NCBI GenBank assembly: GCA_034401795.1
Contig: CM067371.1
Span: 75,598,833 to 75,662,832, forward strand
Length of the DNA: 64,000 nucleotides
From: Chaetoderma sp. LZ-2023a
Lineage: Eukaryota > Mollusca > Caudofoveata > Chaetodermatida > Chaetodermatidae
Direction of reading: 5' to 3'
Below are positions 4,804 through 54,300 of this stretch, one piece after another (position 1 is the stretch's first letter; every line of letters begins with the position of its first letter). The notes below the pieces were generated by a model that was given only the letters and a program-made list of their open reading frames with translations, ran no database searches and had not been told where the DNA came from. The translations under genes and the position numbers were made by a program.

Positions 4804-5006
4804 GATTCTCTGGTGGATCTGAGTATGCCTTTCAGATACTTTGCCTTGGATAGTTGGCGTCTCAGATGGTTGGCTTCTGTTGGGACATTCTCTGCACTTT
4901 CCCTTGTGTTGGACATTTCTTCGTGTAACTTTTGCAGAGACGTACTCCAGTAAGGTCTGTAGTTTTTCCTGGATTCCCTAGGAATGCATTTGTCAGCAGC
5001 AGAGAG

Positions 5007-6110: not shown

Positions 6111-6816
6111 AGCACTTGTAGCAGGGGCAATCAAGTCAGTGATGTCGGGAAAGACGTCATGAGTATATCAGTTTTCTTCCATGTAGGTGCGATCAAAACA
6201 ACACATACATCCATAAACAAATTAATTAAGAAATTCAGTTCATCAAAATATATCCGCCATTTATGGACACGAGTGTTCAAAACACCACCCACTCTGCACA
6301 CCATATCATCCAATACCTAAAATTTTCTGGTTATTTTATTATGTCTGATGATTTCCCAAATGTTATATCTTGTTTTTATGTAGGTTCTTTTGTGTAAGAA
6401 TGTTTAGTTTTATTTTATTTTAAAATGTGATACTCTTCCATGTATCACCTTTAAAATTATCAAATAACCCGGGAATTTACACCAAATTTACTAAAAGTAA
6501 TTTATTGCTTACCTTCCGCATCAATTTCTTCAAGATGACCCATGTCTGCAAACAACATTCTGACGATTTTTGATAAGCATCACCATCAAACCATAGTACT
6601 CGGTAGTCGATAGCAACCAGTGTCCTCATTCAAGCCAAATTCTAGTGGTGATATTGCTGATTGATTGCGTCTTGTTGAAGATAGCCACTACCTAACAATG
6701 ATATGAGCACAGTTGATCTTCTCTAGAAGTACATAGGATCATGGGGGTAGAGCGCGCTGCCTTCTAACTTTTGAGGCACGAGATTCTATGATAGTCTTTT
6801 GTAGGTATTTATTTGT
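6111..6816. other. No gene seen
   Basis: This stretch between LINE A and R repeat copy 1 is AT-rich, has only short open frames and matches nothing I recognise. It could be unique spacer DNA or an eroded repeat. Confidence 0.5.
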
Positions 6817-9734
6817 CCAGTATGCCTGTCCATAGCAATTTGGTGATCTATGGACTTACAAGAATTGATTTGGTGACCTAAAAATATAAGTCTATACAAT
6901 GAGTTTACCTAAACAATTAAAAATATGCTAGATAAAACTACAATAAGAGCATACGAAAATACGAGACATAGAGACAGGTAGATGAACTTCTAAGCATGGG
7001 GCTCCCGGAGGTACCACACAGACCCGTAGGTCCGCAAAGGTATCCCCGCAAGGGAGGCTCCCATACACGAGACTTAACTATTTAACCTATTATAAGTTCT
7101 TACACCTCTAAGCTGAAAGGAAGAAGGTTATATCAGACGAAATGTGATGTGTCTCACGCGGGCACTACTCCTAGTGCTAGTTTTGGCGAGGAGTATTATC
7201 CTGGCATGGGCCGTCGTTGCTGAATCCTTGGGCCCACTCTAATATTTCAATCAAAAATGCTTTTAGAGAGAAAAGACCATACCTAGTGAGATTATGACTA
7301 TAGGGGTGCGTACTGTTTTACGTGAAGACGGGACAGGGAATTCCCAATGGATTCCTTCATTACCGTCTTATGTGATTCTAGGTATGCTGAATTAGTAGTT
7401 GCCGCTTTATTTATGCGGGCCTTCTGCTTTGCTTAATTCATGTTAGTTGTTTTCAGAACAAGAATTATTTTAGGCTGCAACTGGCTGATATCTACCTAGC
7501 TTTTAGACACGGCTGTCATGGAGAACAGATGCCCTAAGACATCAATACTAAAGACAGCGCTCATACATGTTATGTAGCAAGATCTCCGAACTGGATACAA
7601 ATCTGGACATCCCGCCCCATAACCACATAAAACATTACAAGACATGGGTTACATTTCACGAAAGCATTATTAGGCCATTGTTCTATCATTATGGTGGGGG
7701 TAAGAGAGACGAATAGGGCGTGGCAGATCTAAATATCATGCCCAGACATTTTAACGGAATTCGGTGGGTGTATGTATCTCGCCCGTCACCGGGTCCTATG
7801 GAACTAACCATTTTACCTTTCGTTAGGTTTATACACAAGTTGCCTAGTTTTGCACTGCGGTGCGGGAGGACAGTTCAGTAAATAAAATAATAATTAATAC
7901 ATATGTTTTCGCAGTGCTTTCCTACATTGGCTTAAAGTACTAACTACTAAGTATCCGAAGATATGCGGGGAGGTGTATGTGACACCACACCCTGGCCATC
8001 ACCGCTCGGAAACCCCGATAGTTTCCCAGAGTCAGATCAGCCCATGGTGCGGATGGGGACACCCAAACAATTAAGAAGCCACAAGGCTGAGTGGAGCACG
8101 AGGAGAGACAAAGTCTTACTTATGAGTCTTACCAGAGTGCGGGGCTAGATTATCGCACTACCGGAAGAGAAGAAGAATATATTACACAGTATGTAATGAA
8201 GACAGTGTCTCTAATCGTTTTGAACCTATCCTATCAAGCTGAATAGAAAAGGTTAGTCGGTAGCATGCCGGGATAAACAGAGTTATAGCACGGGCAGCGA
8301 CCTCAGTGAAAAAGTGTTGGTGGCGGGAGAATGTGCTGCATATATAAGTGTTGCTGTATAGTGTTTCCTATGTGCACCGCAGTCCTAGATTTTCTATAAA
8401 TAAGCAAAACATATGAACGGATGGCCACTGGCATCAAATGATTAAGATACATATTTTAGTATGTGCACTATAGTGCGGTTAGCAACACTGAGAAAGTTGA
8501 TAATAATTATCGACAAATACAGAAATTATTACTATCGGTCCTAAGACCGTTGCGGTTCCTTTTAGTCATCGGGACCGTTTTTATGGATACAATATAATTA
8601 ACAAAACCTATATAGCGAAATCATTAAACTGTGAACTATAGTTACTTGAATACTTGATAGTCATTCCTAAGTTAGGCTACCGTGTTACTGAAATTGATTC
8701 CCACAAGCTGTTTTCCGCAAACAAGACTTCCGCAAGAACACTCATGGCGGGAGTGCATCGCTTAGTGCTGTAGGCCTAATAGAATGTCTAACGAGCAGTC
8801 AGTAAAAGATACGATAGTACTTTGTGGTGAAGAAAGTTCCCGTACACCGATGGCACGGACGGAAGGTGTAAACAACCCGTCACAAGCGGGGGTTGGCAGA
8901 GGCAAACGAAGATACAAAACAAAGCTACACGGTGTTGGGTATTTCAGCCAGCTCTGAAGACGCACCGGGCAGAGTTTACTTGCTGCGGTCGGACTTCGAA
9001 AGAACTGACACGATGTGTGCAGCGGCGATTGAAATACCACTTTTAGGCGTGGCCGGCAGATCCGGCGAGTCATCCATCAAAGAACATCCTGCATCTGCAT
9101 CTACATCTGTAGACTCACATATTCAGGCCATAAGTAGGGAGTCTACAAAATTGCTTTTACTGCGGTGGGTTGGCTACTGGTAGCTACGGAAACGCGACGG
9201 AAACTGAAGTCATATGCATAATATCTGTCGATCGTAGCTAGTACAGCTCCAACCTGTTCCTGCCCCTGGCCGAGGATGCTCTCGATCACTGAATCGCTTC
9301 TCCTTTTATACCCTCCGTGATATTTTAAAGATAATCATGAAGGGTTTTTCCTGGATAACTCAGCCATTTCTTCACCGATTTTGAAATGGTTTACAGATTT
9401 GAAAAGCCCGTTGAATTCTAGTCTTGATTAATGGCAGATTTAACGGGAACAGGCAATCAATAAGGATTACAGGGTCCCATCCCGGTACACTAAAAGCACC
9501 ATCATATCTAGGTCATAACTACGTGCGCCATATAAACAGCGTCCTGGCACGCGCATGCGCATCATGCGCTTTAACGAACGTAGTCGTTTTTCGACACGCT
9601 ATCTCTCCCATAGTCCTATATACGCTTATAGCTCTACCCAGAGGGGCGTGTTCAGGAAACGAATCCAGGACGACCGGGCGCGTACCCGGCTTAGCTGGTA
9701 TGGCCAGTATCCGACCGGTCGATCCGAACTACAG
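6817..9734. mobile_element. R repeat, copy 1 (left-truncated)
   Basis: This is one of three copies of a long dispersed repeat (others 18058-23177 and 51468-54920). Shared blocks run in the same order, for example CATGGGGCTCCCGGAGGTAC near 6997, GGGTGCGTACTGTTTTACGT near 7303, CGGTCACTGGG-type text, GGTCCTAAGACCGTT near 8538, GGCGGGAGTGCATC near 8744 and GATCCGAACTACA at the right end. Copy 1 lacks the first ~250 bases found in the others. No long conserved frame is present. The full copies end TGTAGCTC...GAACTACA, an imperfect inverted terminus of the TG...CA type. I cannot place it in a known class; a very long LTR or a non-autonomous DNA element are both possible. Confidence 0.75.
9303..9310 (-). 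promoter_or_regulatory. TATA box of R copy 1 (upstream elements deleted)
   Basis: CTTTTATA on the + strand reads TATAAAAG on the minus strand, at the same place as in R copies 2 and 3. Here the ~130 bases that hold the CCAAT boxes and heat-shock element in the other copies are missing: the TATA flank runs straight into TATTTTAAAGATAATC, which in copies 2 and 3 lies beyond the heat-shock element. Confidence 0.6.
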
Positions 9735-12953: not shown

Positions 12954-17867
<4,914 letters not shown>

Positions 17868-18057: not shown

Positions 18058-20464
18058 GTGTAGCTCACCGGGTAGTGTCGGGCCATTCCGGTGTATCATG
18101 TCGACTCGCCACGCCGCAAGTGCACGGCGAGTGATGATGCTGATTAGCATCCAGTCTCGGGGTGACAGACCGTGTACGAAACAAAAACCGGCTCCTAAGG
18201 CCAGTGGAACTCAATCGTTCCGGTGGGGGCCGTACGACCATCGTTGCAAACGTTAAACACAACAGTCTCATCCCACGAGTTTGTGTCACCAGTATGCCTG
18301 TGATATATGGACTTACAAGATTTGATTTGGTGACCTAAAAATATAAGCCTATACAATGAGTTTACCTAAACAATTAAAAATATGCTAGATAAAACTACAA
18401 TAAGAGCATACAAAAATACGAGACATAGAGACAGGTAGATGAACTTTTAAACATGGGGCTCCCGGAGGTACCACACAGACCCGTAGATCCGCAGAGGTAT
18501 CCCCGCAAGGGAGGCTCCCGTACACGAGACTTAGCTGGTTAACTTAATATAAGTTATTATAACTCTAAGCTGAAAGGAAGAAGGTTATCTCAGACGAAAA
18601 GTGATGTGCCTCACGCGGGCACTACTCCTAGTGCTAGTTTGTGTGAGGAGTATTATCCTGGCGTGGACCGTCGTTGCTGAATCCTTGCGAGAGGCAAGTG
18701 CCTTGCGCGGGCCTCCGTCTCAGGAAGGTGTCGCCACTGCTTAAAGCAGGAGAAGAATGGTAGGCAAAAATGGGCCCACTCTAATATTTCAACCAAAAAT
18801 GCTTTAGAGAAAAAAGACCATACCTAGTGAGATTATGACTATAGGGGTGCGTACTGTTTTACGTGAAGACGGGACGGGGGATTCCCGATGGATTCCCTTG
18901 TTACCGTCTTATGTGATTCTTGGTATGCTGAATTAGTAGTTGCCGCTTTATTTATGCGGGCCTTCTGCTTTGCTTAATTCCTATTAGTTGTTTTCAGAAC
19001 AAGAATTATTTTAGGCCGCAACTGGCTGATATCTACCTAGCTATTAGACATGGCTGTCACGAAGAACACATGCCCTAAGACATCAATACTAAAGACAGCA
19101 CTCATACATGTTACGTAGCAAGATCTCCGAACTGGATAAGAATCCGGACATCCCGCCTCGTAACCACATAAAATATTACAAGACATGGGTTACATTTCAC
19201 GAAAGCATTATTGGACCATTGTTCTATCGTTATGGTTGGGGTAAGAGAGACGAATACCCACCATAAATGTCCTTCCCGCAAGGGCATGGCAGATCTAAAT
19301 ATCATGCCCAGACATTTTAACGGAATTCGGTGGGGGTACGTATCTCGCCCGTCACCGGGTCCTATGGAACTAACCATTTTACCTTTCGTTAGGTGTATAT
19401 ACAAGTTGCCCAGTTTTGCACTGCGGTGCGGGAGGATTGTTCAGTAAATAAAATAATAATTAATACATGTGTTTTCGCAGAGATTTCCTACATTGGCTTA
19501 AGGTTCTAACTACTAAGTATCCGAAAATACACAGGAATGTGTATGTGACACCACACCCTCGCCATCACCGCTCGGAAACCCCAATAGTTTCCCAGAGTCG
19601 GATCAGCCCATGGTGCGGATGGAGCCATCCAAACAATTAAGAAGCCACAAGGCTGAGTGGAACACGAAGAGAGACAAAATCTTACTTATGAGTCTTTCCG
19701 GAGTGCAGGGCTAGATTATCGCACTACCAGAAGAGAAGAGTATTTTACACAGTATGTAATGAAGAAAGTGTCTCTAATCATTTCGAACCTATCCTATTGA
19801 GCTGAATAGAAAAGGTTTAGTCGGTAGGATGCCGGTCTAAACAGAGTTATAGCACGGACAGCGACGTCAGTGAAAAATTGCTGGTGGCGGGAGAAAGTGT
19901 TGCATATATAAGTGTTGCTGCATAATGTTTCCTATATGCACCGCAGTCCTATATTTTCTATGAATAAACAAAACATATGAACGGATGGCCACTGGCCATA
20001 TATATATATATACATAATCTAACCAGAACAATCAATATGGTGGTAAATGATTAAGATATATATAACAGTACAGGTTACCGAACCTACTACAGTGCCGTTA
20101 TCAACACATTGAGGAAAATGAGAATAATTATCAACAAATACAGAAATTATAACTAGCGGTCCTAAGACCGTTACGGTTGCTTTTAGTCATCGGGACTGTT
20201 ATTGAGGATACAATATAATTAACAAAACCTATATAGAGAAATAATTAAATGGTGAAGTAGAGTTACTTGAATACTTGGTAGTCATTCCTAAGTTAGGCTA
20301 CCATGTTACTGAAATTTATAGGTTGATCCGTAGTCGACGTGAAATGATGCGCTCTCCGGAAGCTGGAAAGTTGCCGCATGTGGGTTCCCGCAAGCTGTTT
20401 TCCGCAAACAAGAATTCCACAAGAACACTCATGGCGGGAGTGCATCGCTTAGTGCTGTAGGCCT
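18058..20464. mobile_element. R repeat, copy 2, left part
   Basis: Starts GTGTAGCTCACCGGGTAGTG, as copy 3 does, and follows the other copies block by block up to GTGCTGTAGGCCT at 20464. There it is replaced by LINE B sequence. The segment matching 8773-9204 of copy 1 is absent from the window at this locus. A small frame at 19650-19800 is the counterpart of the Cys-containing frame in copy 3, but shifted by one base. Confidence 0.8.
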
Positions 20465-21216
20465 GTGTGCCGGAGCTTCATGAGGAGGCCATCCTTCCAC
20501 ACCTTGTCAAATGCCTTCTGCAGATCGATAAAGGCAGCTAGCATTTCCTTCTTGGCTTGAAAGGTGTCCTCTATGACCTGTGCAAGATGTGTTGTTTGAT
20601 CTTCTGTGCTCCTGTATCTTCTGAAGCCGGCCTGCTCTGAAACTATAATGTTCTCTGACTCCAGGTACCACTGCAACCGCTGGTTGATGATGCGCTCCAT
20701 GGTCTTGCATATGCAGCTTGTAAGACTGATAGGACGGTAGCTCAGCACTTTCGTCTAGTTCTTCCCTTTTTCAGAATAAGGGTCATTCTGACTTCCTTCC
20801 AGCACTGAGGAACCTCTCCATTGGTCCAACTGAGATTTACAATGTCTAGCAACTTGCGGAGAGATGCATTACCAAGGTGTTGGATCATTTCATTCGTAAT
20901 GCCATCTGGCCCGGGAGATTTCTTCTTCTTCAATTGCCGGATAGCCTTCTTCAGTTCTGCTAAACTAATGTCAACTTTCATTGCATCATGAGTGTTGGTG
21001 TCTGTTCTTTCCTTTTGCTCTTTTCTAACCTCTTTTTGACGCATTCGTGGTATAGAAATGATGTTTTCTTTTGCATATGCCTTCGCAAAGGCATCTGCAG
21101 CCATCTTTCCTGTCAGGGTTTGTCCATCTTCTTCAAGAATAATCTTCTCTCACCCGACACCCTCATCATTCAGTGCTTTAGTCAGTCTCCATAGCTTTGT
21201 GGTGTCTCTCTCTAAA
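20465..21216 (-). pseudogene. LINE B: reverse transcriptase, 3'-truncated
   Basis: Minus-strand frames 21104-20742 and 20748-20465 carry KKSPGPDGITNEMI (RT motif 0/1), YRPISLTSCICKTMERIINQ, SEQAGFRRYRSTEDQTTHLA and DLQKAFDKVWKDGLLMKL (catalytic Asp of motif A). The frame shifts by one near 20745. The sequence ends after LRHTGLQ where R copy 2 begins, so motif B, the YADD motif, the thumb, any RNase H and the 3' UTR are missing. LINE insertions are normally truncated at the 5' end, so loss of the 3' half needs a later deletion or recombination. It is the same clade as LINE A but a different subfamily. Confidence 0.85.
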
Positions 21217-22559
21217 TTAACCCCTGCGGTCTCCCCCCCCCCCCCCGCTTCTTCTTTTCACCTCCAGCTTGGTCTTTAGATACCTGGCTTTAGTTTGTTG
21301 TAGCATGAAGTGGTTTTCATGACAGGGATTACACTCTGCCTCTTCTCTGGCCTTTTCTAGTTTATCATGTGCTGCTTGCAGTTCTGTTGTCCAGTAGGGG
21401 CGGTAGTTTTTCCCGAACCCTCGAGGAATCGCTTCGTTGGCAGCCTTGAGAATACTTGAATTAAATTCCTTGACCACATTGTTGATGTTTCTCCCTTCTA
21501 CTGCTATATTTTGGGTAAGCTCATTGGAACGATTGCCGAACAGACTCCAATTTGCCTTTTTGTAGATCCACCTTGGATGTTGAGGTGAACTTGGCGAAAT
21601 ACTTTCAGAAAGAGAGAGGAGGACTGGGCGGTGGTCACTTCCTCCTAACTGCGATCCGACCACTCTACTGAGGTTTCTGTGAATGTCTTCTGTACAAAAT
21701 GCCAAGTCTGGCGTTGTTGTCGAGTGCGACCGGCGCGAGTAGAAGGTAAGCTGATCTGTGGGATCGTTGAAAGGTGCTTTTCCTCTTGCCATACTTCAAT
21801 GTCTTCTCCTCGTTTATCAAGTATTCTGTATCCCCAGCTCTGGGACTGGCTATTAAAGTCTCCCGCAATGAGGAAGTGGCGGTCCGGGACCTGGATTGTG
21901 ACAAGTGAGAGATTCTTGTCATTAGGGCAGTAATAATTGACAATGTCAATCACAGAGTTGCTGGTTGTTACCTTGATCTTGATATATTCAGCCTCTTCCA
22001 TAAAGGTTTTGATCTGGCTGGCGTTCACGCTGTTTCGGACCAAGGTGATCACCCCGCCTTTCTTTCTTCCTCTTCGATCACACCGGAAAATCTGGTAACA
22101 TCTGATCTTAAATGGGTTTCCTTCTTGCATGTGTGTCTCTTGGATGCAGCAGATATCAATGTTGTTTTCGTACAGGAACTGTTCGAGCTCTGATTTCTTG
22201 CTGGTAACCCCTTCTGCATTCCAATGCATGATGTTGATACTGGGGTTCTCTTTGGGTTTGGTCTTCTCTTTCGGTTGGCCAGTAGCTCTCCATCCTCGTC
22301 CCCTGGCTCCACAAGACGAGTTAATGGGACCTCCAGTAGCTGAGGGTGGGCTCCTTCGAGGGCGTGGAGCCCGGCGCTGCAACTGCCTGGCGGATCCTCA
22401 CAGGTCGAGCACCATTTCGGTTGATTCGATCTCCAAGTGTCATTTCATTAGCGTTGTGCATAATGCTCTGGTCAGCCCCTCCAAATGTCTGGATTGACAC
22501 CCAGTGGGTTACACCCCTGTGCCACGTTGAGGCCGAGCATATAGTCTTAAACAGGGGAA
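21217..22559 (-). pseudogene. LINE B: endonuclease and ORF1 end
   Basis: The minus-strand frame 22382-21645 has INIMHWNAEGVTSKKSELEQ, NIDICCIQETHM (catalytic Glu), GGVITLVRNSV, IVNYYCPND and FLIAGDFNSQSQSWGY (Asp and Asn of the GDFN motif). After a one-base shift near 21790, frame 21792-21217 continues with TPDLAFC, GGSDHRPVLL (SDH catalytic pair) and the linker to RT, ending in a run of Cs at 21234-21246 that may have caused the next frameshift. All endonuclease catalytic motifs remain. 22383-22559 resembles the same place in LINE A and reads as the end of ORF1. The right edge at 22559 returns to R copy 2. Confidence 0.85.
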
Positions 22560-23177
22560 TGAAGTCATATGCGTAATATCTGTCGATCGTAGCTAGTACA
22601 GCTCCAACCTGTTCGGCCCCTGGCCGAGGATGCTCTCGATCACTGGATCGCGTCTCCTTTTATACTCCTCGCGACATCACAGGCACAGGCTGCATCCAAT
22701 CATCGTTCGAGCAACAGCCAATCAGCGTGCAGCTAATAATAGTGCAGTCGAACGTTCTAGAACATTCTAGAAGCTTTGCGTCCACATGGTTATGACGTCA
22801 CAGCAATATTTTGAAGATAATCTTGAAGAGTTTTTCCTGGATAACTCAGCCATTTCTCAGCCGCTGGTCTTGATTAATGCCAGATTTAACGGGAACAGGC
22901 AATCAATAAGGATTACAGGGTACCATCTCGATACACTAACAGCGCCATCCTATCTAGGCCGTAACTACGCGCTCCATATAAACAGTGTCCTAGCGTGCAT
23001 GCGCATCATGCGTTTTAACGAACTTAGTAGTTTTTTGACACGCTATCTCTCCCATAGGCCTATATACGCTTATGGCTCTACTCAGAGGAGCTTGTTCAGG
23101 AAACGATTCCAGGATGGGCGGCGCATACCCATGTCAGCTGGTACGGCCCGTATTCGACAGGTCGATCCGAACTACAC
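22560..23177. mobile_element. R repeat, copy 2, right part
   Basis: Resumes with TGAAGTCATATGCGTAATAT (copy 1: 9205) and ends GTCGATCCGAACTACA. It contains the best version of the R promoter. The right terminus GAACTACA mirrors TGTAGCTC at the left end of the copy. Confidence 0.8.
22657..22772 (-). promoter_or_regulatory. HSE/CCAAT/TATA promoter in R copy 2
   Basis: Read on the minus strand from upstream: a heat-shock element of five exact alternating nGAAn units (GAA 22750-22752, TTC 22755-22757, GAA 22760-22762, TTC 22765-22767, GAA 22770-22772); two inverted CCAAT boxes (22718-22722 and 22696-22700); and TATAAAAG (22657-22664). Transcription would run leftwards from about 22630. A cAMP-response-like TGACGTCA lies at 22793-22800. 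The order and spacing match animal hsp70-type promoters. The function is inferred. Confidence 0.75.
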
Positions 23178-24129
23178 CACCCCTTCTAGTTTGACATCCA
23201 TGGCAAACGATCGCGCATGGCAGATCGATGCACAGACGTACACTTGGTGAGAATTATAGACTTCCCGGGTAGGTGCGTGACCGGAGAGGGGTAGTGATGC
23301 TTTAGACGCATATTCAAGAGACAGAGCACAAAGGGGTGCCAAGAGGAGAGAGGCATACTTTTAGTTTTTAATTTTGACATGGAATTATTTTTTCAGGCCT
23401 TTCTTCTTTTCTTTGTTTTATTACTAATATTACGGTGCGTGCTATAACTTTATTTAGTAGATGATTCTAAACAATAGCTCGCATGGGTGTTCTCCTTGAG
23501 TGCGGATAATCACGATCTCCGCAAAGAACACCCAAGTTCCAACGTACCAAAATTTAAGTTTGTAAATATATATAAAAATATAATAAGAAAAAGACAAGGT
23601 ATATCGAGACCATGTAACATACCCTTACGAGGTATTTATTTATTAATCACACTGTATTACTTGCGCACCCCGGGTAAATAAAGGGGTATGCAATATGTAT
23701 CATTTAGTATTATCATTATAGAAAATATCTATTTGCGGCCCGTTATTGCAAGGCCGCAACGATCAGCTCTCGCTGGCCTCATATCCGTCCTGACATCTGA
23801 GACAGGAAGAAAAATTATAAGAAAAATAAGATATATATATAAGTATAATAACGTAAGAATTGACGGGATCGTGACATTATTACACTGTGTGGAATGTTGT
23901 ATTCTTTACATCGCACACGACGTTCTTACAACCTCGGAATCCACAGGGCTCTTTTCGTGTGAGACACAACCGGGCACTGAAGTGTGCGGTTGTGTCGGAT
24001 AACCATAGTCATCCTAAGGGCGGGATTCAATTGATCCAACATATATAATAAGAAGAAATAAGAAGTATTTAGAAAATAAAGTAATAATTAATAGATTTCC
24101 ATGAATTGCCTATTGATATTTCTGCTGAA
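23178..24129. other. No gene seen
   Basis: Non-coding, AT-rich. It holds an inverted pair at 23483-23530 (GTGTTCTCCTTGAGTGCGGA ... TCCGCAAAGAACACC). It may be the 3' part of the element whose ORFs lie at 24130-25453 on the minus strand. Confidence 0.4.
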
Positions 24130-24675
24130 TTACATACGATCACGCCTCTGCAGCGAAATTTCGCCATTGAGTCTGGGTCCCGTGACTGGCGGTGGTGGAT
24201 GCACTGTCATTGCTGAGATGCTTTCACTATTATCATTATTGGCACTATCTGAAACATCCGAAGTGATGGTGGCGGAAATATGCGCGTCTATTATGTCTCT
24301 CACAGTTACTGCTGGTTCCAATATATCCATCCTTATAGCAGCGGTGGTACTAGTGGTTGCCAATGTCGCTGATGCTGTGGTGATGGTAGCTGCTGTGGTG
24401 ATGGCGGTTGTAGCTGTTGTGGTGGTCGCTATTGCTGTTTTGGTAATGGCGGCGAGCTGTACCGTCGGCTGAAGTCGTAGTGCGGGAGCGGATACAGCGG
24501 GAGACGACATCTTCCGAAACTTAGCATACTTTAATAGACGACTTGTGGTGATGTTAGGCATGGCCTGGATATCCTGTGTGTGTGATCCGTCTCTTTCCTG
24601 CGTATGGACGTTCCGGCATGGTTCCCTTTCTGATTGCGGGGTCAGAAAGGCGAGGAGGCGGATGCTGAATAACAC
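24130..24675 (-). CDS. Unidentified Thr/Ala-rich ORF, continuation of the 25453 ORF
   Basis: This 181-codon frame overlaps the end of the upstream ORF by 122 bases in the next frame. It could be reached by a +1 shift, or the two may have been one frame broken by an indel. After NITTSRLLKYAKFRKM it becomes a low-complexity Thr/Ala stretch and then a more ordinary tail (DILEPAVTVRDIIDAHISAT). The low-complexity part is encoded by GTGGTG/GCTGTTG-type repeats, so an open frame there is weak evidence. No domain is recognisable. Confidence 0.35.
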   Translation of the reverse strand: MLFSIRLLAFLTPQSEREPCRNVHTQERDGSHTQDIQAMPNITTSRLLKYAKFRKMSSPAVSAPALRLQPTVQLAAITKTAIATTTTATTAITTAATITTASATLATTSTTAAIRMDILEPAVTVRDIIDAHISATITSDVSDSANNDNSESISAMTVHPPPPVTGPRLNGEISLQRRDRM

Positions 24676-25453
24676 GGGTCGGAGTTACACTTATTGTCAC
24701 AGGCTGCGATGGTCCTGGTCCTTCGTCTATGGAAAGTTCGGGTGGAGATGGAGACTGCGGGTAACTTGGAATGTCTATTTCCGCAGGTGTCGTAATTACC
24801 ACTGAAATCGGTTGACTGGCCAACACTGTTTGAGATACTACGCTGACGGGTGTAGCGACCGTAGCTGGATGGCTAATAACTGATGCGGGTGCTGCTGAAC
24901 TGGGTTCTGCGGGAGATTTTTGCTTCTTACTCTGCTTCAGGACCGGTGTGGATGAAGTGACAGGTACCGGCGTAACACTTCCAGATGCGGCTGTGGGCAG
25001 GATTTCACGTCTGGCTGGCGGTACATTGCTTATTATAGCCGTGGGAAGACGATGGCTAACGGGATATCTACGAGTAGTGTTCTTCATGCGGGCCATTTTC
25101 TCGGTCGGGAGAACTTTAACTGGGAGCCGAGATTCGAAGCGGGTGGCTAAAATGGCATGATCCTCGTTCTCTTCCCCAGGAACTAACGTCACTTCCAACA
25201 CACAGTGATGATAATGGAGCGTGTGTGTCACCCCATAGCGAGTAGCGGTGTAGATATACTGGGACATCACACAAAAGGCTGACTGGGAAAGATGATCCTT
25301 ATTAACATGACGGGTGTGGTCGGATTCCCTAGTGAAGGTTCTGGTACATGGCTCTCCGCTAGCTAACAATGAGTTACACAGGAACCACCTTGGAACTGGT
25401 ACCGATTCTTCTTCATATGAATCCGACAACGCTAAATCTTCAGGGAGTGACAT
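24554..25453 (-). CDS. Unidentified ORF with a zinc-finger-like N-terminus
   Basis: A 299-codon frame starting at a good ATG (25453) about 210 bases downstream of a TATAAAAG box. Residues 26-54 contain two Cys and then TFTRESDHTRHVNKDH, which resembles the second half of a C2H2 finger, but the two Cys are nine residues apart instead of two to four. Residues 55-125 look like a compact folded domain (VTHTLHYHHCVLEVTLV). The rest is Pro/Ser/Thr-rich and probably disordered. It lies downstream of a Ty3/gypsy element in the same orientation. It may be ORF1 or gag of another retroelement, or a third ORF; I cannot choose. The frame may continue at 24675 by a +1 shift. Confidence 0.5.
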   Translation of the reverse strand: MSLPEDLALSDSYEEESVPVPRWFLCNSLLASGEPCTRTFTRESDHTRHVNKDHLSQSAFCVMSQYIYTATRYGVTHTLHYHHCVLEVTLVPGEENEDHAILATRFESRLPVKVLPTEKMARMKNTTRRYPVSHRLPTAIISNVPPARREILPTAASGSVTPVPVTSSTPVLKQSKKQKSPAEPSSAAPASVISHPATVATPVSVVSQTVLASQPISVVITTPAEIDIPSYPQSPSPPELSIDEGPGPSQPVTISVTPTRVIQHPPPRLSDPAIRKGTMPERPYAGKRRITHTGYPGHA

Positions 25454-25456
25454 CTT

Positions 25457-25485
25457 GTTCCTGCATGGTAGTTAGTTGCAGGAAC
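25457..25485 (-). promoter_or_regulatory. Short hairpin just upstream of the 25453 start codon
   Basis: GTTCCTGCA and TGCAGGAAC form a perfect 9-bp stem around an 11-base loop. In the transcript it would sit 3 bases before the ATG. Confidence 0.5.
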
Positions 25486-25666
25486 TTTGTTCGAAACCTA
25501 ATGCCCTATCTCTTCATTGTTGATAACTTTCCAGGACAAATATAATAATTAAATTAATAAGAAGAAGAAAAACAGCAGAATTTTGTTTCTGAAAGAAACC
25601 TAATGCTATGTTCTTCCCTGGTGTCGAGTTTTGACGGGAAGACAAAGTTTCAGAGCGCACTTCCTC

Positions 25667-25674
25667 CTTTTATA
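25667..25674 (-). promoter_or_regulatory. TATA box upstream of the 25453 ORF
   Basis: CTTTTATA (TATAAAAG on the minus strand) in the context CTCCTTTTATACT followed by GACGTCACAGGC. The R copies have CTCCTTTTATACT and GACATCACAGGC in the same relation, so the two core promoters look related. Confidence 0.55.
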
Positions 25675-26771
25675 CTATTTGGTGACGTCACAGGCGGCGG
25701 ATGACCACACTTAAAAGTTTTAACAGGTGATTCGGTCATCCTTATATGAATGGCTCCTCGTTTTCCGGCCTGGCGTCATAGGATTAATTCCTCCCATATA
25801 AAGGGAGTACTTTTAATTATAGGAAGAATGGCTCGTTAAATTTAACTGCCTCCGATCAACATAGAAACGCGGTACTACTTTTTCTTTGCGGAGCCTCACC
25901 TTTTAATTAGCGTGAGGCGGTTCTCCAGGTTGGATGCTTATAAACTTGCCTAATTGATTTTAGGCTGGAGCGCCCGATGGGGTGTGTGGGAGCCAGGTGA
26001 CGTCAGCGGTAATCTCCCGGACTCACCCTCGCCACTCCTCCATCACGCTGTGGTAGTCGCGTTTTTGGGCAACTCCTTTATTTAAAGCGTTTGATCCAAC
26101 TTACTGGAAATAGCAGTAAATGTCACGTGGCTCTAAAAAGCACGTGGTTGATCGGAACATGTATGCTGTCTATGGCGACGGCCAAAATGCTGTTGCTGAG
26201 GTGTAGTCTGATGCAGAGGCGAGAGATAGAAATATATATGTTACATCAAGATCTTTATAATGTCCCGTATTTGCGTGAGTTCTTTAACATGCGTCTTAGT
26301 AGGTGTCTGTAATAGGTAGTTCTCAGCCCGTGTTGATTATAGACTGGAACATAAGGAAGAGAATTTTTGAAATTCTCTTTGTAATTTCACTGTCAGTTTT
26401 TTTATGCCCCTTTACCGGCCCATGCGCTAATGATTTGTAGCACGGTAGAGCAGTTGTGCTTTTAATCAAAAGTTTAACAATAAAGTTGTAAGTAATTTTG
26501 ATGTGTGGTATAAACAGTTCTATTCATGCGATAGATCAACATTACTGATCCTGTCAAGATAGCTGTGTTTTCCGAGCAGGAGGGCTGGCCAAGCATTCTC
26601 CTCAATGGGTAGAACTAGCTCCTGTCCCAGCCTAGACCAAACACATTAGTACCATTTTAATAATGGTTAAATGACAGTACAACTCGCAAAAATGTGTGCC
26701 ACAGTTATCACAATTACAATGCCGTCATTCGGAGATTGTGAATACAGTCAACCTGAGTGTCTGTGTTTCTG
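25675..26771. other. Non-coding region between gypsy pol and the 25453 ORF; possible LTR
   Basis: No gene is seen. It lies 3' of the gypsy integrase and contains the TATA box region, so a long terminal repeat is possible. I could not find a second copy of it beyond the 5' end of gag near 32400, so the LTR status is not shown. Confidence 0.35.
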
Positions 26772-27673
26772 TCATGTTGGTGACTTGAATCTGATATGCG
26801 TGACTGGTTTTCTGTGGATGGTACTTGCGCTATGGTGAAGGTGACGTGCGGTGCGGGATGCCACCTCCTCTGTTGCAGCAGTCTCTCTCATATCTGAAGA
26901 TTGAGGGTCAACAGATGACGAGTGGAGTGTGAAATGGACTGGGCTGGTGATGTCCGAGCTTGGTGTGTAGATAAGGGACACTAATTGGAGTGATGACGGT
27001 GGCGGGACTATTGGAGAGGGTCTCCCTTGGTGGGGGGGGGGGTTGTGGTTTCGCGATTTCGGGAATTGGTCGGGTACACCTTGTTGTATGGTTCTGCGGT
27101 TCTAGACACGCCAAGGCTTCATCCAGCCTCTTCACTTCCATGCTATTCACCACATGTTCCACCCCATAGGAAGCATGGCTTGGGTCAGCCTCAGCTTCCA
27201 CTTGTGGTAACTCTATGATGGGGGGCATAACATGAAGTGGGTGGAAATGGGATGAGATCGGAGGAACAACTTTCCCATTCGGTCCCTTGGACAAAACAAA
27301 CACAAAGTTCTTCAGATATGACTTCCCAGATCGAGTAGACCCATGCTGAGGAGGGAGAGGGCGAGTACGTATCTCGTCATCGTCGTCAGCGTTAGCTGCC
27401 TGTTCATCCACGTTCTGGCTTGGTAGAACTGGGGCTGAACTATCACCGCAGTGCTCTGCGCTAAATGTGGGAATACTAATTTTCGTAGAAATATCTGTCT
27501 GGGTACCGGTGTCATGAGAAACGCCCAGCCCGAGCTCTGGTGCTGGGTCATCACTGACACAAGGTTTAAGTCGATCGAAGTAGATGACTGAGGTCAGGCC
27601 ATCCGAAGAATGGACATGGTAGGTCACGTCGACGTCTTACCTACTACCACATAGGGGCCTTTCCACTGGTAAC
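26772..27673 (-). pseudogene. Gypsy integrase C-terminal tail
   Basis: Frame 27627-26908 begins with YHVHSSDGLTSVIYFDRLKP, which resembles the small beta-barrel (the region after the DDE core) of gypsy integrases. It is followed by a Pro/Glu-rich low-conservation tail (residues ~30-239). A shifted frame continues to 26772. It has no recognised domain beyond the barrel. Confidence 0.65.
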
Positions 27674-28600
27674 TCAGTTTACTTGGCACGTTTGCAGACC
27701 GTCGTGAATCGTGTACCCTCCTGCTTCATATGGATCTCCATGCACTCTCCGGTCATACCATGTCTTTTGCTGCCAGTGTGCAGTGGATAATGTTTCTCTC
27801 ACTAACTCATGGGCTTGTTCTATCCTTTGCCGCAAGAGTCCGACATAGAGAGATGGTGAATTTTTCTCTCCTGGTATTCGTGGCATGGCCAGATCCAGGG
27901 GTAATGCTAATTCACGGCCTAACATTAACCGAGCAGGGGTGTAGCCCATGCTGGAATGTTCTGAAGTGCGGTAAGTCATGAGTACATACGGGAGCCATAG
28001 ATCCCAGTCTCTACAATCAAGGCGTGTTTCCTTGGTAAGAATCCCCGCGAGAGTTCTATTGAATCTCTCTACCATCTCGTCGCTCCCAGGGTGGTATGGA
28101 GTTGTCCTTGTTTTGACGATATGGAATAATTTGCAGAGCTCTGATATGAGCCGGCTCTCAAAATTATTTCCTTGATCGGAGTGCAACTCATAAGGCATAC
28201 CAAAGCGGCAGAACACATTGCTGGCCAAGACCTCCACTACGGTGGATGCCTCTTGGTCCGGCAAAGCAAATGCTTCTACCCACTTCGTAAAATAATCTTG
28301 CAACACGAGGATTTATTTATTTCCATCATCCGTCATATTCAAGGGTCCGAGCACATTGATAGCCACTCGCTCCCATGGTGCACCAACAATCTTAGTTTGC
28401 GATGGTGCGATATGGTGTTGGCCAACAGCACGTTTTTGGCATGGGATACATTTGGCAACCCATGCCTTGACACTATCGCGAATTCCGGTCCAGTGGAATC
28501 TCAGTTTGATACGGGCAACAGTCCTTTCCACAGCCAGATGTCCAGTGTTATCATGTAGTTGTTTCAATATAAGTTCACGATAACTTTCCGGGACTACCAA
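27674..28600 (-). pseudogene. Gypsy integrase (HHCC and DDE core)
   Basis: Frame 28600-28313 carries the zinc-binding domain: H in LKQLHDNTGHLAVERT and CxxC in WVAKCIPCQKRA. Frame 28306-27674 carries the catalytic core: the first Asp in DYFTKWVEAFALPDQ, the second Asp in ELHSDQGNNFES and the Glu in DEMVERFNRTLAGIL, then WLPYVLMTYRTSEHSSMGYT. All three acidic residues remain. The two frames meet at an in-frame break near 28310, which includes a run of T/A (GGATTTATTTATTTCC). The enzyme inserts the element's cDNA into the host chromosome. Confidence 0.9.
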
Positions 28601-28633
28601 ATGGTCATTAAAGTATAGAACGTTATTTATTAA

Positions 28634-30130
28634 TCAACATTCTTCGAACCGTTGGTAATAATATTCAGCCATGGTGGATAGAGGTGTTACCGATTCCTTA
28701 GGAGGACGTACCCCCTCCTGAATCCAAGCGTATATATTCCGTGTCTTCACGTCTGTTGTTTGGTGGTATGCGATTTTCTCTGGATTCCACTCTGCGCACC
28801 TCAATTCGGGGAACTCCGGAGATGGCTGTGTTGACTGTGTCATGGTGGCAGCCTCTTCATGTTCAACCTCCGCGCCGATTCTGCTACGGGCATAGGCATT
28901 TCCATGCAATTTGCCGGGACGGTGAACAACGTTAAAGTTATAGGCCTGCAGGGATTCCTGCCATCTTGCTACCTGGCCCTCCGGATTTTTAAAGTTCCTG
29001 AGCCAACGTAGCGAGGCATGGTCTGTACAGAGTGTAAAAGGGCGCCAGTACAGAAAGTGCTTATAATACTTGAAGAAATGGACTGCCGCCAATAGTTCTC
29101 GCTTGGTGGTTGCATATCTTCTCTCAGTTTTATTCAGAGTACGTGAACCGTAACCCAACACCTGCTCTGTTCCGTCTTCGGGGACCTCAGATAGAACCGT
29201 GCCCATAGTGAAAGCTGACATGTCCATGTCTAAGATGAAATCGAGGTTTGGATTGGGATGAGCAGGAATTGGGGCGGTCATCAAGAGTTCCTTCAGTGCC
29301 CCAAAGGAGCCTTCACACTCACTCATCCACTCAAATGGTCGATCTTTCTCGGTGATCTTGTAGAGGGGTGAAGCAATCTCGCTGAAATGTCGGATGTACC
29401 GGCGATAGTACTGGCATAGGCCAAGGAAACTCTGTGTCTCCGTAACTGAAGAGGGCCGAGGCCACTCTGCTACTGCCTTAGTTTTCGATGGCTGTGTAGC
29501 CACTCCATCACCAGATATGACGTGTCCCACGAACTCAACGCTCTGTCTGAAGAGATGACATTTCTTCGGTTTGAGTTTCAAATTGGGCGTGCGGAAATGG
29601 GAAAGCACGGTGTCCAAATTGATCACGGTTTGCTCAAACGTTGGTCCAAAGACTATTACGTCATCAATGTAACAGAGACAGATCTCCCATTGCAGGGTGG
29701 TTAATACCTGCTCAATGAGTCGTTCAAAAGTTCCGGGAGCATTGCACAACCTGTACGGCATCTTGCGGAATTGGAAAAGGCCGTCCCTACAAACGAATGC
29801 CGTCTTTTCCATATCAGCTTCATCCGTGGCTACTTGCCAGTAACCTCTAGCTAAATCAAAGGTACAAAACCACTCGGCTCTGGACAAGGAAGGCCTGATC
29901 TATCCGTGGTAACGGATAAGCGTCTTTAATGCTAAGATCATTAAGGCGGCAGTAGTCAATGCAAAACAGCAAGGTTCCATCCTTTTTGCCTGCTAGCACT
30001 ATAGGGCTAGCCCATGGAGATGCTGAGGGTTCAATAATACCAGTCCGCAACATGTCGTTCACTTGTTGGTGTGCTTCTGCTTCCTTGTGAATGGGAAGAC
30101 GTCGTACCGGTTGTCACACGGGGTGATTAT
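28634..30130 (-). pseudogene. Gypsy reverse transcriptase and RNase H
   Basis: Frame 30062-29856 has the RT start (MLRTGIIEPSASPWASPIVL, KKDGTLLFCIDYCRLND). Frame 29887-28634 has FDLARGYWQVATDE, AFVCRDGLFQFRKMPYRLCN, CLCYIDDVIVFGPTFEQT (YIDD catalytic box at residue ~73), FLGLCQYYRRYIRHFSEIAS (connection), DMSAFTMGTVLSE (first RNase H Asp), KRELLAAVHFFKYYKHFL (Glu) and CTDHASLRWL (Asp). Pro in MPFGL-type text reads MPYRL. A frameshift near 29870 splits the RT. The RNase H is followed by the linker to integrase. Confidence 0.92.
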
Positions 30131-30149
30131 TGCCTGTATCGATGGAGTG

Positions 30150-31715
30150 TCATACGAGATGAGTCTCTCTGAGATCCATGTCTGCGGAGGAAAAACCATC
30201 GCGATATTTATGTAGTAGTTTCCGAATTTCTCGTTTTTGTGATTGCAGTAATCCAACGGTGGCACGTAGATATAAATCGTGTACATGTTCGGGCAAATCA
30301 TCAGTCATTTGCGGTGTTATGTCAGAAAGTGCAGGTGATTCCAATGAGATTATGTCCACTAAATGGCTGCAGCGTACCCCGGGTTCCAGAGTGATGGGAT
30401 CTGCGGTACCATTGAGCACTCTAAAAGGTATTTTTTCCTTATTACTAGTGTCCACTATTATGCGGGGACTTGCGCATTGTGAGGCGATCATATAATCAGG
30501 GTCGGGTTCCAGCATGCCGATGTGTGAGTTGCTTCCTAACTGTGGCGCGGTGGCCCTTAAGATCTGTTCCTGTCCCCACTCAGCTGTGGCGGTACTTGAT
30601 AATATAACCGCACACGTATCGTACCATGACGATGCTGGTCCGAGAGGTATCCGTCGGCCATGTATGTCGTGTTCCTGTTGTCTGCAGTGTATGATGGCTT
30701 CGCTGGCACTGAGAAAATCAGAGCCAAGTAGGGCGTCGTTGTCAATAGAAGCGATGACAACTTTCTGAATGAATTGCATTTCCTCTATTTGGATAACTAA
30801 ATTAACTGCACCGCCTACAGGTACATTTGCTCCCGTAGCCGTCTGTAGGTAAATATTTGTAGGCTTAAGGGGAGGCTTTTTATGAGGTGGGATGCTCTCA
30901 TATAAGCGCTGGTTAAATACTGTGATAGAAGCACCGGTGTCGACGGTGGCACTAGTGGAAACGCCACTAAACAGACAGGCACATTTGTATATTACTTTGC
31001 GATGTACCTGCGGAAGAGTTTCCAATGATGCTGTCCGTGATAATGGCATTGGAGCAGCATCACTCTGTATGTATTCCGACCGTTTCCGTATTGCTTCTTG
31101 TAAGGTTGTAGATGGCTGAGTGAGGAAAGGACCAGTTCGCCGTCGCCACTGGTGTGTAGACTGCGGTGAAGACGGAGCTGGGGGTAGCAATGGTGGTGGT
31201 GATGTTGCTGTTTCGGTGTAGGCGGTATTAGCATAGACGGCGGCGTGTACGGGATGACGGATAAGCTCTACCTGCGCAAGCCATTTCCTACAATCCTTCA
31301 TAGGATGCTTTGGTGAAGCGCAGAAGAAACAATGATATCTCCATGGATGTGCGTTCCTCCGTTTATGTCGGCGCTTGCGGATCCATGAGGCGGAGTGAAT
31401 CATCTCTCCTGAATCGCTAATGTCTGTGGATGTTGAAGATGATGCTGGCGGGGGTGATGTTCTGCATACCACCAGAGGGCACCGAGAATATAGTGCCTTG
31501 GTGGCGGAACGTGGTGCTTTCAAAAACGTTGTCTCAGCGGAGGTGCTACAACCTACCACTGCCGTTTTACACAGGAAAGAAGGCTTGTCATGTGCAGAAA
31601 AAGTGGGGGATGTCCTTGCTGCGGATGGGGGAGGCATCGTAGGCACTGACATATGTGAAGCCGTACATTTTGGTGTTGGTGTGAAAGCTGATTTCTGTGG
31701 ATGATGGTTAGCCAC
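30150..31715 (-). pseudogene. Gypsy gag C-terminus/protease polyprotein
   Basis: A 521-codon frame. Residues ~130-145 have CFFCASPKHPMKDC, a CX2CX4HX4C zinc knuckle. Residues ~244-275 have CACLFSGVSTSATVDTGAS, the DTGA aspartic protease active site, followed by ITVFNQRLYESIP and the family's ALLGSDFLSA (flap and C-terminal region). The last ~150 residues lead toward RT and end at a stop in the position where RT should begin. The N-terminal 120 residues are Ser/Pro-rich and may not be coding. A second CCHC knuckle lies upstream in another frame (31900), which is unusual. Confidence 0.85.
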
Positions 31716-31795
31716 TGAACGTTGTTGCGTGAAAGCTGCAGTTGAGCCGGGAGGTGGATACGGGCACCGAAGTGGCTCTGTGTGATTCGGTGTCC

Positions 31796-32380
31796 TTAGG
31801 AGTTTGACTGTTTCTTCGGTTGCGGTGTGCTACGGTCTGGAGCAGGCGTTGTAGAGGGAGGTTGGTTAGGACACCGCTCCCTCCAATGTCCTGGCTGACC
31901 GCATCCGAAACAGGTGTTCGGTGGCGGTGCGGTGTTGGTGGTCTTTGCTGTCCTAAACTGCGTGGTGGCGAGGTTGGTGCTGAGTGTTGTAACCAAATTA
32001 CTGAGTGCAGAGATTTGTTTGTTAATCTCTTCTATCCGCTCTCTCATGTTGCCGTTGTTGTTGTTGTTTTACTGGTTCCCACGCCTGGGAGCTCCGTTGT
32101 ACCCTCCTCTATGGGCACAGCTCCTTCCTCCAGGCGCTTGATTCTGATTGGAATTCTGCACATCCGGTGGTGGTGGTGTTGTCTGTGTGGTCGGTGTCGA
32201 TGATCTGGGGGGGGGGGGCGGAGCACTAGCGGGTGGGGCGATAGCTGCACCCTCTATCTCGTTGATATGATGGAGTTGGCGGCGGTTATTCTTTTCCCAC
32301 TCCAGAAGGTTCTCAATGCGAACCGTGGTTGCCGTTAGTGCGGTGGGTTGGCTACTGGTAGCTACTAGGTCGTTTCGCAC
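31796..32380 (-). pseudogene. Gypsy gag fragment with zinc knuckle
   Basis: Frame 32380-32069 (LVATSSQPTALTATTVRIEN then a Pro/Gln-rich stretch) and frame 32047-31796 (MRERIEEINKQISALSNLVT, a coiled coil, then CFGCGQPGHWRERC, a CX2CX4HX4C nucleocapsid knuckle). The frames are offset by one. The usual capsid domain is not seen, so either gag is very diverged or its 5' part is missing. The segment at 32339-32366 matches R copy 1. Confidence 0.7.
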
Positions 32381-34548: not shown

Positions 34549-34557
34549 AAATGTTAT

Positions 34558-34650
34558 GTTGAGTATTTTGGACTTAGTTTGATTGGAAGCCATTGTTGCC
34601 TTAGGCAGCATTAATGGCTTCCAATCAACTTACGTCCAAAATATTTAACA
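34558..34650. repeat. Foldback hairpin family C
   Basis: TTGATTGGAAGCCATTGTTG and its mirror ATGGCTTCCAATCAA close over GCCTTAGGCAGC. Six further full or partial copies occur in the window. Confidence 0.8.
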
Positions 34651-51300: not shown

Positions 51301-54300
51301 AAACTACCACTGGTAAAAAATGGAAATGTGTCAGGATTATTTGAGACGAAGCATTTACTAAATCTAGGTGCGCTTAATATGGAACCAATTAGTGACATAG
51401 CTGGTGCTTCACGCTCCGCCATATGTCAACTGTGTGTGCAGGTATACTACGTACTCGAATATAACAAGTGTAGCTCGCTGGGTGGTGTCGGGCTGTTCCG
51501 ATGTATCATGTCGACTCGCCGCACCGCAAGTGCACAACGAGTGATGACGCTGGTTAGCATCCGGTCTCGGGGGTGACGGACCTTGTACGAGACTGCCCTG
51601 CGGGAAACAAAAAACGGCTCCTAAGGCCGGTGGAACTCAATCGTTCCGGTGGGCTGTGCGACCATCGTCGCGAACATTAAACACAACGGTCTCATCCCAA
51701 GAATTTGTGTCACCAGTATGCCTGTCCATAGCAATTTCGTGATCTATGGACTTATAAGATTTGATTTGGTGACCTAAAAATATAAGTCTATACAATGAGT
51801 TTACCTAAACAATTATAAATATGCTAGATAATACTACAGTAAGAGCATACGAAAATACGAGACATAGAGACAGGTAGATGAACTTTTAAACATGGGGCTC
51901 CCGGAGGTACCACACAGACTCATAGGTCCACAGAGGTATCCCCGCAAGGGAGGCTCCTGTACACGAGACTTAGCTATTTAACTTAATATAAATTATTATA
52001 CTTCTAAGCTGAAAGGAAGAAGGTTATCTCGGACGAAAAGTTATTTGCCTCACGCGGGCACTACTAGTGCTAGTTTGGGTGAGGAATATTATCCTGGCGT
52101 GGACCGTCATCGCTTAATCCTTGCGAGAGGCAAGTGCCTCGCACGGGGGTCGTCTCGGTAAGTTGTCGCCACTGCTTAAAGCGGGAGAAGAATAGTAGGC
52201 AAAAATGGGCCCACTCTAATATTTCAACGAAAAATGCTTGAGAAAGAAGACCATACCTAATGATATTATGACTTTAGGGGTGCGTACTGTTTTACATGAA
52301 GGCGGGACGGGCAATTCCCGATGTATTCCCTCGTCACCGTCTTAGGTGATTCTTGGTATGCTGAATTAGTAGTTGCCGCTTTATTTATGCGGGCCTTCTG
52401 CTTTGCTTAATTCATGTTTAGTTGATTTCAGAACAAGAATTATTTTAGGCCGCAACTGGCTGATATCTACCTAGCTATTAGACACGGCTGTCACTGAGAA
52501 CAGATGTCCTAAGACATCAATACTGAAGACAGCGCTCATACATGTTACGTAGCAAGATCTGCGAACCTTTCACGAAAGCATTATTAGACCATTGTTCTAT
52601 CGTTATGGTGGGGGTAAGAGAGACGAATACCCACCATAAATGTCCTTCCCGCAAGGGCATGGCAGATCTAAATATCATGCCCAGACATTCTAACGGAATT
52701 CGGTGGGGGTACGTATCTCGCCCGTCACCGGGTCCTATGGAACTAACCGTTTAACCTGTCGTTAGGTTTATATACAAGTGGCCCTGTTTTGCACTGCGGT
52801 GCGGGAGGTTTGTTTAGTAAATAAAATAATAATTAATACATGTGTTCGCATTGCTTTCCTACATTGGCTTAAAGTGCTAACTACTAGGTATCCAAAGATA
52901 CATGGGAATGTGTGTGATACCGCACCCTGGCCATCACCGCTCGGAAACCCCAATAGTTTTCCAGAGTCGGATCAGCCCATGGTACGGAGGGGGACATCCA
53001 AACAATTAAGAAGCCACAAGGCTGAGTGGAACATGAAGAGAGGCAAAATAGAGTTATGTGTCTTACCGGAGTGCGGGGCTAGATTATCGCACTACCAGAA
53101 GAGAAGAGTATATTACAGAGTATGTAATGAAGAAAGTGTCTCTAATCATTTTGAACCTATCCTATTGAGCTGAATAGAAAAGGTTTAGTCGGTAGCATGC
53201 CGGGCTAAACAGAGTTATAGCACGGACAGCGACCTCAGTGAAAACTTGTTGGTGGCGGGAGAAAGTGCTGCATATATATGTGTTGCTGTATAGTGTTTCC
53301 TACGTGCACTACAGTCCTATATTTTCTATGAATAAGCAAAACATATGAATGGATGGCCACTGGCCATATATATACATAATCTAACCAGAACAATCAATAT
53401 GGTATCAAATGATCAAGCTATATATATCACTACAGGTTAACGAACCTACTATAGTGCGGTTAGCAACACATGGAGAAAATTAGAATAACTATAAACAGAT
53501 ACAGAAATTATAACTAGCGGTCCTAAGACCGTTACGGTTCCTTTTAGTCATCGGGACCGTTCTTACGGATACAATATAATTAACAAAACCTTTATAGAGA
53601 AATAATTAAACTGTGAAGTATAGTTACTTGAATACTCGGTAGCCATTCTTAAGTTGGGCTACCGTGTTACTGAAATTGATACGTCAATCCGTAGTCGACT
53701 TGAGATGATGCGTTCTCCGGAAGCTGGAAAGTTCCCAGGTTGGTTCCCGCAAGGTGTTTTCCGCAAACAAGACCCGCAAGAACACTTATGGCGGTAGTAC
53801 ATCATTCAGTGCTGTAAGCCTAATAGAATGTCTAACGAGCAGTCAGCAAAAGATACGATAGTACTACTGTGGTGAAGAAAGTTCCCGTATACCGATGGCA
53901 CGGATGGAAGGTGTAAACAACCCGATCACAACCGGAAGAAGATACAAAACAAGGCTTCACTGTGCTGGGTACGTCAGCCAGCTCTGAAGACGCACCGGGC
54001 AGAGTTCACTCGCTGCGGTCGAAAGTCAAAAGAACCTACACGATATTAGTGCGGGGACGGTTGAAATATCACTTAGGCGTGGCCGGCAGATGCGGCAAGT
54101 CATCCATCAAAGAACATCCTGCCTCTACATCTGTAGACTCACATATTCAGGCCGTAAAGGCCTCACCGCGAATTTGTGTTCTGAGGTAGATATTGATATT
54201 CGTGAACAAAAGAAGTTCCAAATTACTCCCGTAAATGGGGAGTTACAAAATTGTTTTAGTGCGGTGGGTTGGACAACTGCCAGCTACGGGATAAAAACCT

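Follow-up and report, generated by a model that had tools for sequence, protein, structure and literature searches.

A heat-shock-type promoter in the long terminal repeats of a high-copy Ty3/Gypsy retrotransposon of the mollusc Chaetoderma sp. LZ-2023a

What kind of mobile element carries a heat-shock-type promoter in the genome of Chaetoderma sp. LZ-2023a, and what would such a promoter transcribe? The question is raised by a 64,000-nucleotide stretch of contig CM067371.1 (assembly GCA_034401795.1; hereafter, the window), in which a first-pass annotation, made from the sequence alone, had noticed a dispersed repeat, R, with a minus-strand promoter retained in two copies 31 kb apart.

The promoter and the R copies of the window

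The motifs of the promoter are located as follows in the two copies that bear it, here named R2 and R3.

22793..22800, minus strand: CRE-like TGACGTCA, upstream of the heat-shock element in R2 (R position 377)
22750..22772, minus strand: perfect five-unit heat-shock element (HSE) of R2, by exact pattern match
54493..54515, minus strand: perfect five-unit HSE of R3, by exact pattern match
22718..22722, minus strand: distal CCAAT box (ATTGG) of R2 (R position 455)
22696..22700, minus strand: proximal CCAAT box (ATTGG) of R2 (R position 477)
54461-54465 and 54439-54443, minus strand: CCAAT boxes of R3 (R positions 455 and 477)
22657..22664, minus strand: TATAAAAG box of R2 (R position 513)
54400..54407, minus strand: TATAAAAG of R3 (R position 513)

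Exact pattern matching thus re-found the perfect five-unit HSE, the two CCAAT boxes and TATAAAAG in both copies, with identical spacing on the minus strand, and both promoter stretches lie exactly where they had first been placed. The HSE core pattern TTCnnGAAnnTTCnnGAAnnTTC is matched without mismatch at both sites. On the minus strand of R2, positions 22772-22750 read TTCtaGAAtgTTCtaGAAcgTTC, that is, five perfect inverted units, and the AAA found two bases upstream would need a single further base to make a sixth unit; the R3 element (54515-54493) differs only in its last spacer, which reads ca. When as many as two mismatches are allowed, the core has four matches in the window, a number that includes two overlapping each site on the other strand, compared with 0.20 expected by shuffling, and none of 100 shuffles reached four. 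The first-pass annotation had further argued that the exact units were selectively retained amid R sequence that has drifted. For two copies, this argument does not reach significance, since the 15 of 15 identical core bases, set against 177 of 202 in the remainder, give P = 0.14, and the 22 identical bases out of the 23 of the HSE give P = 0.20.

A self-BLAST of the window revealed three minus-strand R copies; the remains of a retrotransposon body adjoin one of them.

About 6805..9733, minus strand: R1, a long terminal repeat (LTR) copy without the HSE/CCAAT block and with its 3' end missing, TATA box kept
18059..23176, minus strand: R2, 3' LTR of a Gypsy element (TGTAG...CTACA), enlarged by a LINE fragment, as delimited by its ends and by alignment with R1 and R3
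20465..22559, minus strand: LINE fragment (endonuclease and N-terminal part of the reverse transcriptase, RT) inside R2, replacing about 430 bp of LTR and absent from R1 and R3
23177..23187, minus strand: polypurine tract AGAAGGGGTGG, directly before R2
23188..32337, minus strand: Ty3/Gypsy body with gag remnant, protease, RT-RNaseH, integrase, more 3' open reading frames (ORFs) and 3' UTR, its 5' part lost
32329..32365, minus strand: 37-bp LTR remnant at the 5' edge of the Gypsy element, 34 of 37 bases identical to R1
51469..54919, minus strand: R3, a 3451-bp LTR, probably solo, with flanking 4-mers (CTGG/CTTG) that agree at three of four bases

The earlier count of two copies stands for those that bear the promoter, to which R1 has to be added as a third copy with TATAAAAG and no HSE or CCAAT box. 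All three copies begin with TGTAGTTCGG, and R2 and R3 finish with GAGCTACA. About 135 bp, those that hold the HSE and the CCAAT boxes, are missing from R1. With up to three mismatches, the junction of this deletion occurs at two places in the assembly, R1 included, indicating that the HSE-less promoter has hardly spread, although a single deletion would look alike. R1 is bracketed by inverted-repeat arms (6351-6732 and 9798-10172), as if it had inserted in the middle of a long-armed inverted-repeat element.

The absence of a long ORF downstream of the promoter, as first described, does not hold for R2. The LINE fragment, whose 3' half is missing, carries an ORF (21645-22397, minus strand, stop to stop) that matches Pfam Exo_endo_phos (3e-14) and starts about 260 bp beyond the TATA box, in the sense orientation; a relative lies at about 3662-5956 of the window.

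The window harbours several other features. An uninterrupted hAT-type ORF (DUF659) of 625 residues spans 41702-43579, and its product is 100% identical over 99% of its length to the metagenome protein P0121 (sources jgi and lgn), so that host DNA may be present in a public metagenome. Searches with this hAT protein and with the Gypsy RT brought up relatives in many animals, in line with an animal host. A transposase remnant in two overlapping frames (13114-14018), one of which matches DDE_3, is presumably Tc1/mariner-like. Tandem repeats whose units measure about 150-180 bp are found at 10752-11887, 47770-48408 and 59582-61012, and palindromes of about 95-100 bp at 34557-34650 and 41380-41479; the two palindromes resemble one another as well as a stretch at 47450. 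In the assembly at large, the HSP70 family is matched best by two uninterrupted frames, on C19 (244297-246081) and C2688 (14850-16634), which could, as a guess, be bacterial DnaK from symbionts or contamination.

R as the long terminal repeat of a Ty3/Gypsy retrotransposon

R proved to be the LTR of a Ty3/Gypsy retrotransposon with a high copy number. When the 2.44-Gb assembly was searched with the 217-bp promoter block, 3376 first-look candidates were returned, and the 40 of them that were scored share 94-100% identity with it. Immediately before the LTR start, a polypurine tract (e.g. CAAACTAGGAGGGGGTGG) is present at 12 of 30 loci, R2 included. Ten of these 12 were compared with the window (its own locus and L030 being excluded), and in all ten the DNA before the tract matches the 3' UTR of the window Gypsy element up to 23180 or 23177. 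Pfam searches with the minus-strand ORFs of the window identified gag-asp_proteas, RVT_1, RT_RNaseH and rve, in the order protease-RT-RNaseH-integrase that is characteristic of Ty3/Gypsy elements. The junction of 3' UTR, polypurine tract and LTR recurs elsewhere in the genome, and the Gypsy element of the window (23188-32337) thus ends in R2; at its 5' edge, the 37-bp remnant is the sole trace of an LTR.

The opposite junction was read at 20 LTR 3' ends, 17 from loci without the tract and three from loci with it. A primer-binding site (PBS), AGTGG(T/C)GCC(C/A)GATGTGGGGC, which we take to be of the tRNA-Lys type, follows the LTR end at 6 of the 17 and at none of the three. Seven more of the 17 end in CTACA/CTAGA followed by other DNA and represent candidate solo LTRs, and four have no clear end. 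In all six copies with a PBS, a leader of 1.2-1.3 kb, which probably includes the start of gag, precedes DNA that matches the gag remnant of the window from 32337 on. Allowing two mismatches, the junction of LTR end and PBS is found at 3618 places in the assembly, and its reversed control at none. A PBS-like stretch inside R (18265-18293) was rejected as the true site because of its position, some 0.2 kb within the LTR. The family thus displays direct LTRs with TG...CA ends around one internal region, a PBS after the 5' LTR and a polypurine tract before the 3' LTR. Both the LTR and the leader are unusually long, a feature that we count against our preferred explanation.

Mate LTRs were sought at 16 loci; eight were found over more than 1 kb, two as fragments, and six were not found. 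A short target-site duplication of 4-6 bp would be expected around such an element. Exact 4-base flanking repeats, read by eye, were recognised in three cases (ATAT for L013/L052, TAAT for L019 and CTTC for L007); the other solo candidates have no exact flanking repeat, and two pairs have no readable 3' end. The window had no match in Rfam at curated thresholds, and an exact scan of IMG/VR with two LTR patterns returned none either.

Abundance and conservation of the heat-shock element

The proposal that a heat-shock-type promoter travels with a dispersed mobile element is borne out on the scale of the assembly, where it occupies the U3 of an LTR at thousands of places. Perfect five-unit HSEs number 5071 (2526 + 2545), compared with 17 (11 + 6) for the reversed-pattern control; an HSE with a sixth unit can count on both strands, and one such double occurs among the matches listed. 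In 3760 cases (1888 + 1872), or 74% of the 5071, TATAAAAG is located 80-90 nt downstream, an arrangement found nowhere with the control. Among the matches listed, which are the first on contig C1, those of the five-unit HSE and the 95 given with letters for HSE plus TATAAAAG are, judged by eye, close variants of the LTR version.

Conservation was assessed in a set of copies collected with a query from which the HSE is absent (53880-54200, downstream of the promoter). It yielded 4049 first-look candidates, of which 40 were scored, 39 outside the window; one without a promoter (L068) was dropped, leaving 38 copies that are those most like R3 downstream of the promoter and not a random draw. Five intact HSE units are present in 23 of these copies, four in 8, three in 3, two in 3 and none in 1, and at least 14 of the 15 core bases are kept in 31. 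At least three adjacent nGAAn units, the arrangement expected of ONSEN-like promoters, are located in the LTR promoter of 34 of the 38; in the window, R2 and R3 have five such units and R1 has none. The HSE lies 85 nt from the TATA box in 29 of the copies, ATTGG occurs exactly 58 and 36 nt before it in 28, and 33 contain a CRE-like site with at most one mismatch somewhere in the initial 230 bases of the upstream sequence compared. In the mate LTRs in which the HSE was found, five units are intact in 7 of 9 and four in the remaining two.

With regard to sequence conservation, the mean divergence from the majority among the 38 copies is lowest in the columns of the CCAAT boxes (0.016) and of TATAAAAG (0.016). 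It amounts to 0.035 over the 15 sites of the HSE core (0.030 at the 14 non-CpG sites), 0.053 in the HSE spacers and 0.033 at the other non-CpG sites of the HSE-to-TATA interval. For non-CpG sites, upstream U3 reaches 0.051 and downstream DNA 0.084; all other non-CpG sites together average 0.0615, and CpG-type sites 0.139. The comparison of the HSE with its flanks, proposed with the first-pass annotation as a check, therefore has a divided outcome: the core is below the other non-CpG sites (0.030 vs 0.0615), with random non-CpG site sets as low in 10.8% of draws (permutation P 0.11), and it is not clearly below the neighbouring promoter (0.033). Same-shaped windows were as conserved as the core in 63 of 395 positions, and missing cells make up 6.7% of the HSE columns vs 3.1% of the others. 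Taken together, these figures indicate that the promoter block is better kept than the rest of R, and that the HSE is not better kept than the block. A comparison of two subfamilies, which differ at 0 of 15 core sites and at 6 of 187 upstream sites, has no power.

Proposed working of the promoter, and its relatives

We propose that this LTR, present in high copy number, carries an HSP70-type promoter in its U3, composed of the CRE-like site, the five-unit HSE, the two CCAAT boxes and the TATA box, and that it is probably driven by heat shock factor (HSF) under stress. Following heat or other proteotoxic stress, trimers of the host HSF would bind the HSE, aided by CCAAT and CRE factors, and transcription would start about 30 bp past TATAAAAG, near 22630 in R2 and near 54375 in R3. 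From a 5' LTR, the product would be a genomic RNA encoding gag-pol, to be reverse transcribed from a tRNA primer, and from solo and 3' LTRs such as R3 and R2, read-out transcripts into the flanking DNA. The position of the promoter, in U3 and upstream of the predicted start, is supported as the place where an LTR promoter belongs. The identity of R as an LTR, the anatomy of its promoter and its copy number are demonstrated by the sequence; HSF-driven transcription is likely by analogy, the expected HSF binding, heat induction and start site being derived from the HSE motif and from ONSEN; heat induction may also have driven the amplification of the element. Of the two products suggested at first, genomic RNA of the element itself belongs to the correct class, because R is an LTR and its copies with a PBS precede the leader and gag. 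A non-coding product is not needed to account for R3, which lacks an ORF because it is probably a solo LTR.

The layout is that of HSP70-type promoters, in which HSE, CCAAT boxes and TATA box are located on one strand within about 115 bp; the R promoter shares this order and drives no heat-shock protein. DIRS-1 of Dictyostelium, reportedly described by Zuker and colleagues in 1984, is said to have 350-bp inverted terminal repeats with a heat-shock promoter. It uses a tyrosine recombinase and thus, although it too is a mobile element with a heat-shock promoter within its terminal repeats, differs from R in its inverted repeats and its recombinase, R having direct LTRs and an integrase. Retroelements with heat-shock promoters, a transposon that spreads HSEs and the action of HSF1 on animal retroviral LTRs are already known; a search of the open-access literature found neither an animal Gypsy LTR with an HSE promoter nor a description of the R family.

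The closest parallel is ONSEN (COPIA78), for which, according to the reports cited, HSFA2 was found to bind the LTR and induction by heat was demonstrated (PMC3907296, PMC5059998); in Brassicaceae COPIA elements, predicted four-unit HREs in the LTRs went with transcript increases of up to a thousand-fold on heat, as described in PMC5059998. These elements are, like R, LTR retrotransposons whose LTR promoter contains nGAAn units next to one another, and the HSF-driven transcription shown for ONSEN (PMC3907296, PMC5059998) would apply to R by extension. However, ONSEN is described as a plant copia element that is present in A. thaliana as eight full-length copies and whose HRE has four units (PMC3907296, PMC5059998), whereas the R element is a Ty3/Gypsy with five perfect units plus CCAAT boxes, an LTR of more than 3 kb and thousands of copies. 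In Caenorhabditis, Helitrons carrying HSEs are presented as one mobile family that supplies a large share of the HSEs of a genome, as R does (PMC6927752); they are DNA transposons, whereas the HSE of R resides in an LTR promoter at a fixed distance from the TATA box. Among animal retroviruses, HSF1 activates the BLV LTR through an HSE according to a review (PMC10236774), and the LTRs of BLV and HIV-1, which contain an HSE or an HSF1-binding sequence, are reported to be raised in transcription by HSF1 (PMC10236774, PMC9157408). The BLV site is a short TTTCCCGAAA (PMC10236774), compared with the five perfect units of R in an HSP70-like module and in thousands of endogenous Ty3/Gypsy copies.

Four other readings were weighed against the stress-driven LTR promoter. 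The HSE might serve germline or constitutive transcription, R being an HSF-dependent germline element that needs no heat; we regard this as rather improbable. A retrotransposon would gain most from expression in the germline, and the CRE-like site and the CCAAT boxes would support basal activity, but strongly stress-inducible promoters would be expected to look as this one does, with five perfect HSE units in an HSP70-like arrangement. HSF5 offers an example of an HSF that acts without stress, in the meiotic prophase of males (PMC11059408), and HSF1 is reported to lift basal BLV LTR activity as well, in a reporter test (PMC10236774).

With a similarly small chance, in our judgement, the promoter of R could be a fossil or silenced, once responsive to HSF and now, through methylation or piRNA silencing and decay, without present effect. 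The LTRs of one copy have diverged by 4-7% in the six clearest pairs (4.0-6.8% in these six long pairs; two others differ by 12-14% and are possibly not true pairs), so that the sampled copies are not fresh insertions; the Gypsy element of the window has lost its 5' LTR and much of gag, and CpG-type LTR sites are the most diverged (0.139 vs 0.0615), as expected of methylated DNA. Against such a loss of function stand the 3760 matches that combine an exact HSE and the TATA box at LTR spacing, together with the heat activation of ONSEN, for which transcriptional silencing is reported to matter little (PMC5059998).

A still less probable possibility, which concerns origin and is compatible with the stress-driven LTR promoter, is that a host HSP70 gene was the source from which the entire promoter was captured. 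The order HSE-CCAAT-TATA is as in HSP70 promoters, and long uninterrupted HSP70 reading frames are present on C7 and C12 of the host assembly, but the described precedent points elsewhere, the HRE of ONSEN having arisen when a shorter motif was duplicated (PMC5059998). Finally, that R is a non-autonomous DNA transposon or an unclassified dispersed repeat merely adjoining a Gypsy element, as its short inverted ends (9 bases in R3 and 8 in R2, each with one mismatch) and the lack of a convincing tblastn match to Gypsy coding remnants in R would allow, is ruled out for practical purposes by the recurrent polypurine-tract and PBS junctions with the same Gypsy body.

With the stress-driven LTR promoter as the preferred reading, a mobile element that senses stress would tie environmental heat to genome change, each LTR bringing the switch to its landing site. 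We tentatively suggest, as a possibility against which the odds still lie, that this genome has come to draw its strong HSF sites mainly from one Gypsy family, with thousands of LTRs that would fire together on heat, titrate HSF from chaperone genes and give nearby genes a heat-inducible read-out. On a smaller scale, such a hold of a transposon family on the HSF landscape of its host has been demonstrated with ONSEN, and it has been considered for the Helitrons of Caenorhabditis; here, about five thousand perfect HSEs, some three quarters of them with TATAAAAG at LTR spacing, provide a direct test of whether a transposon can dominate HSF binding. If so, the heat response of the host would be partly set by a retrotransposon.
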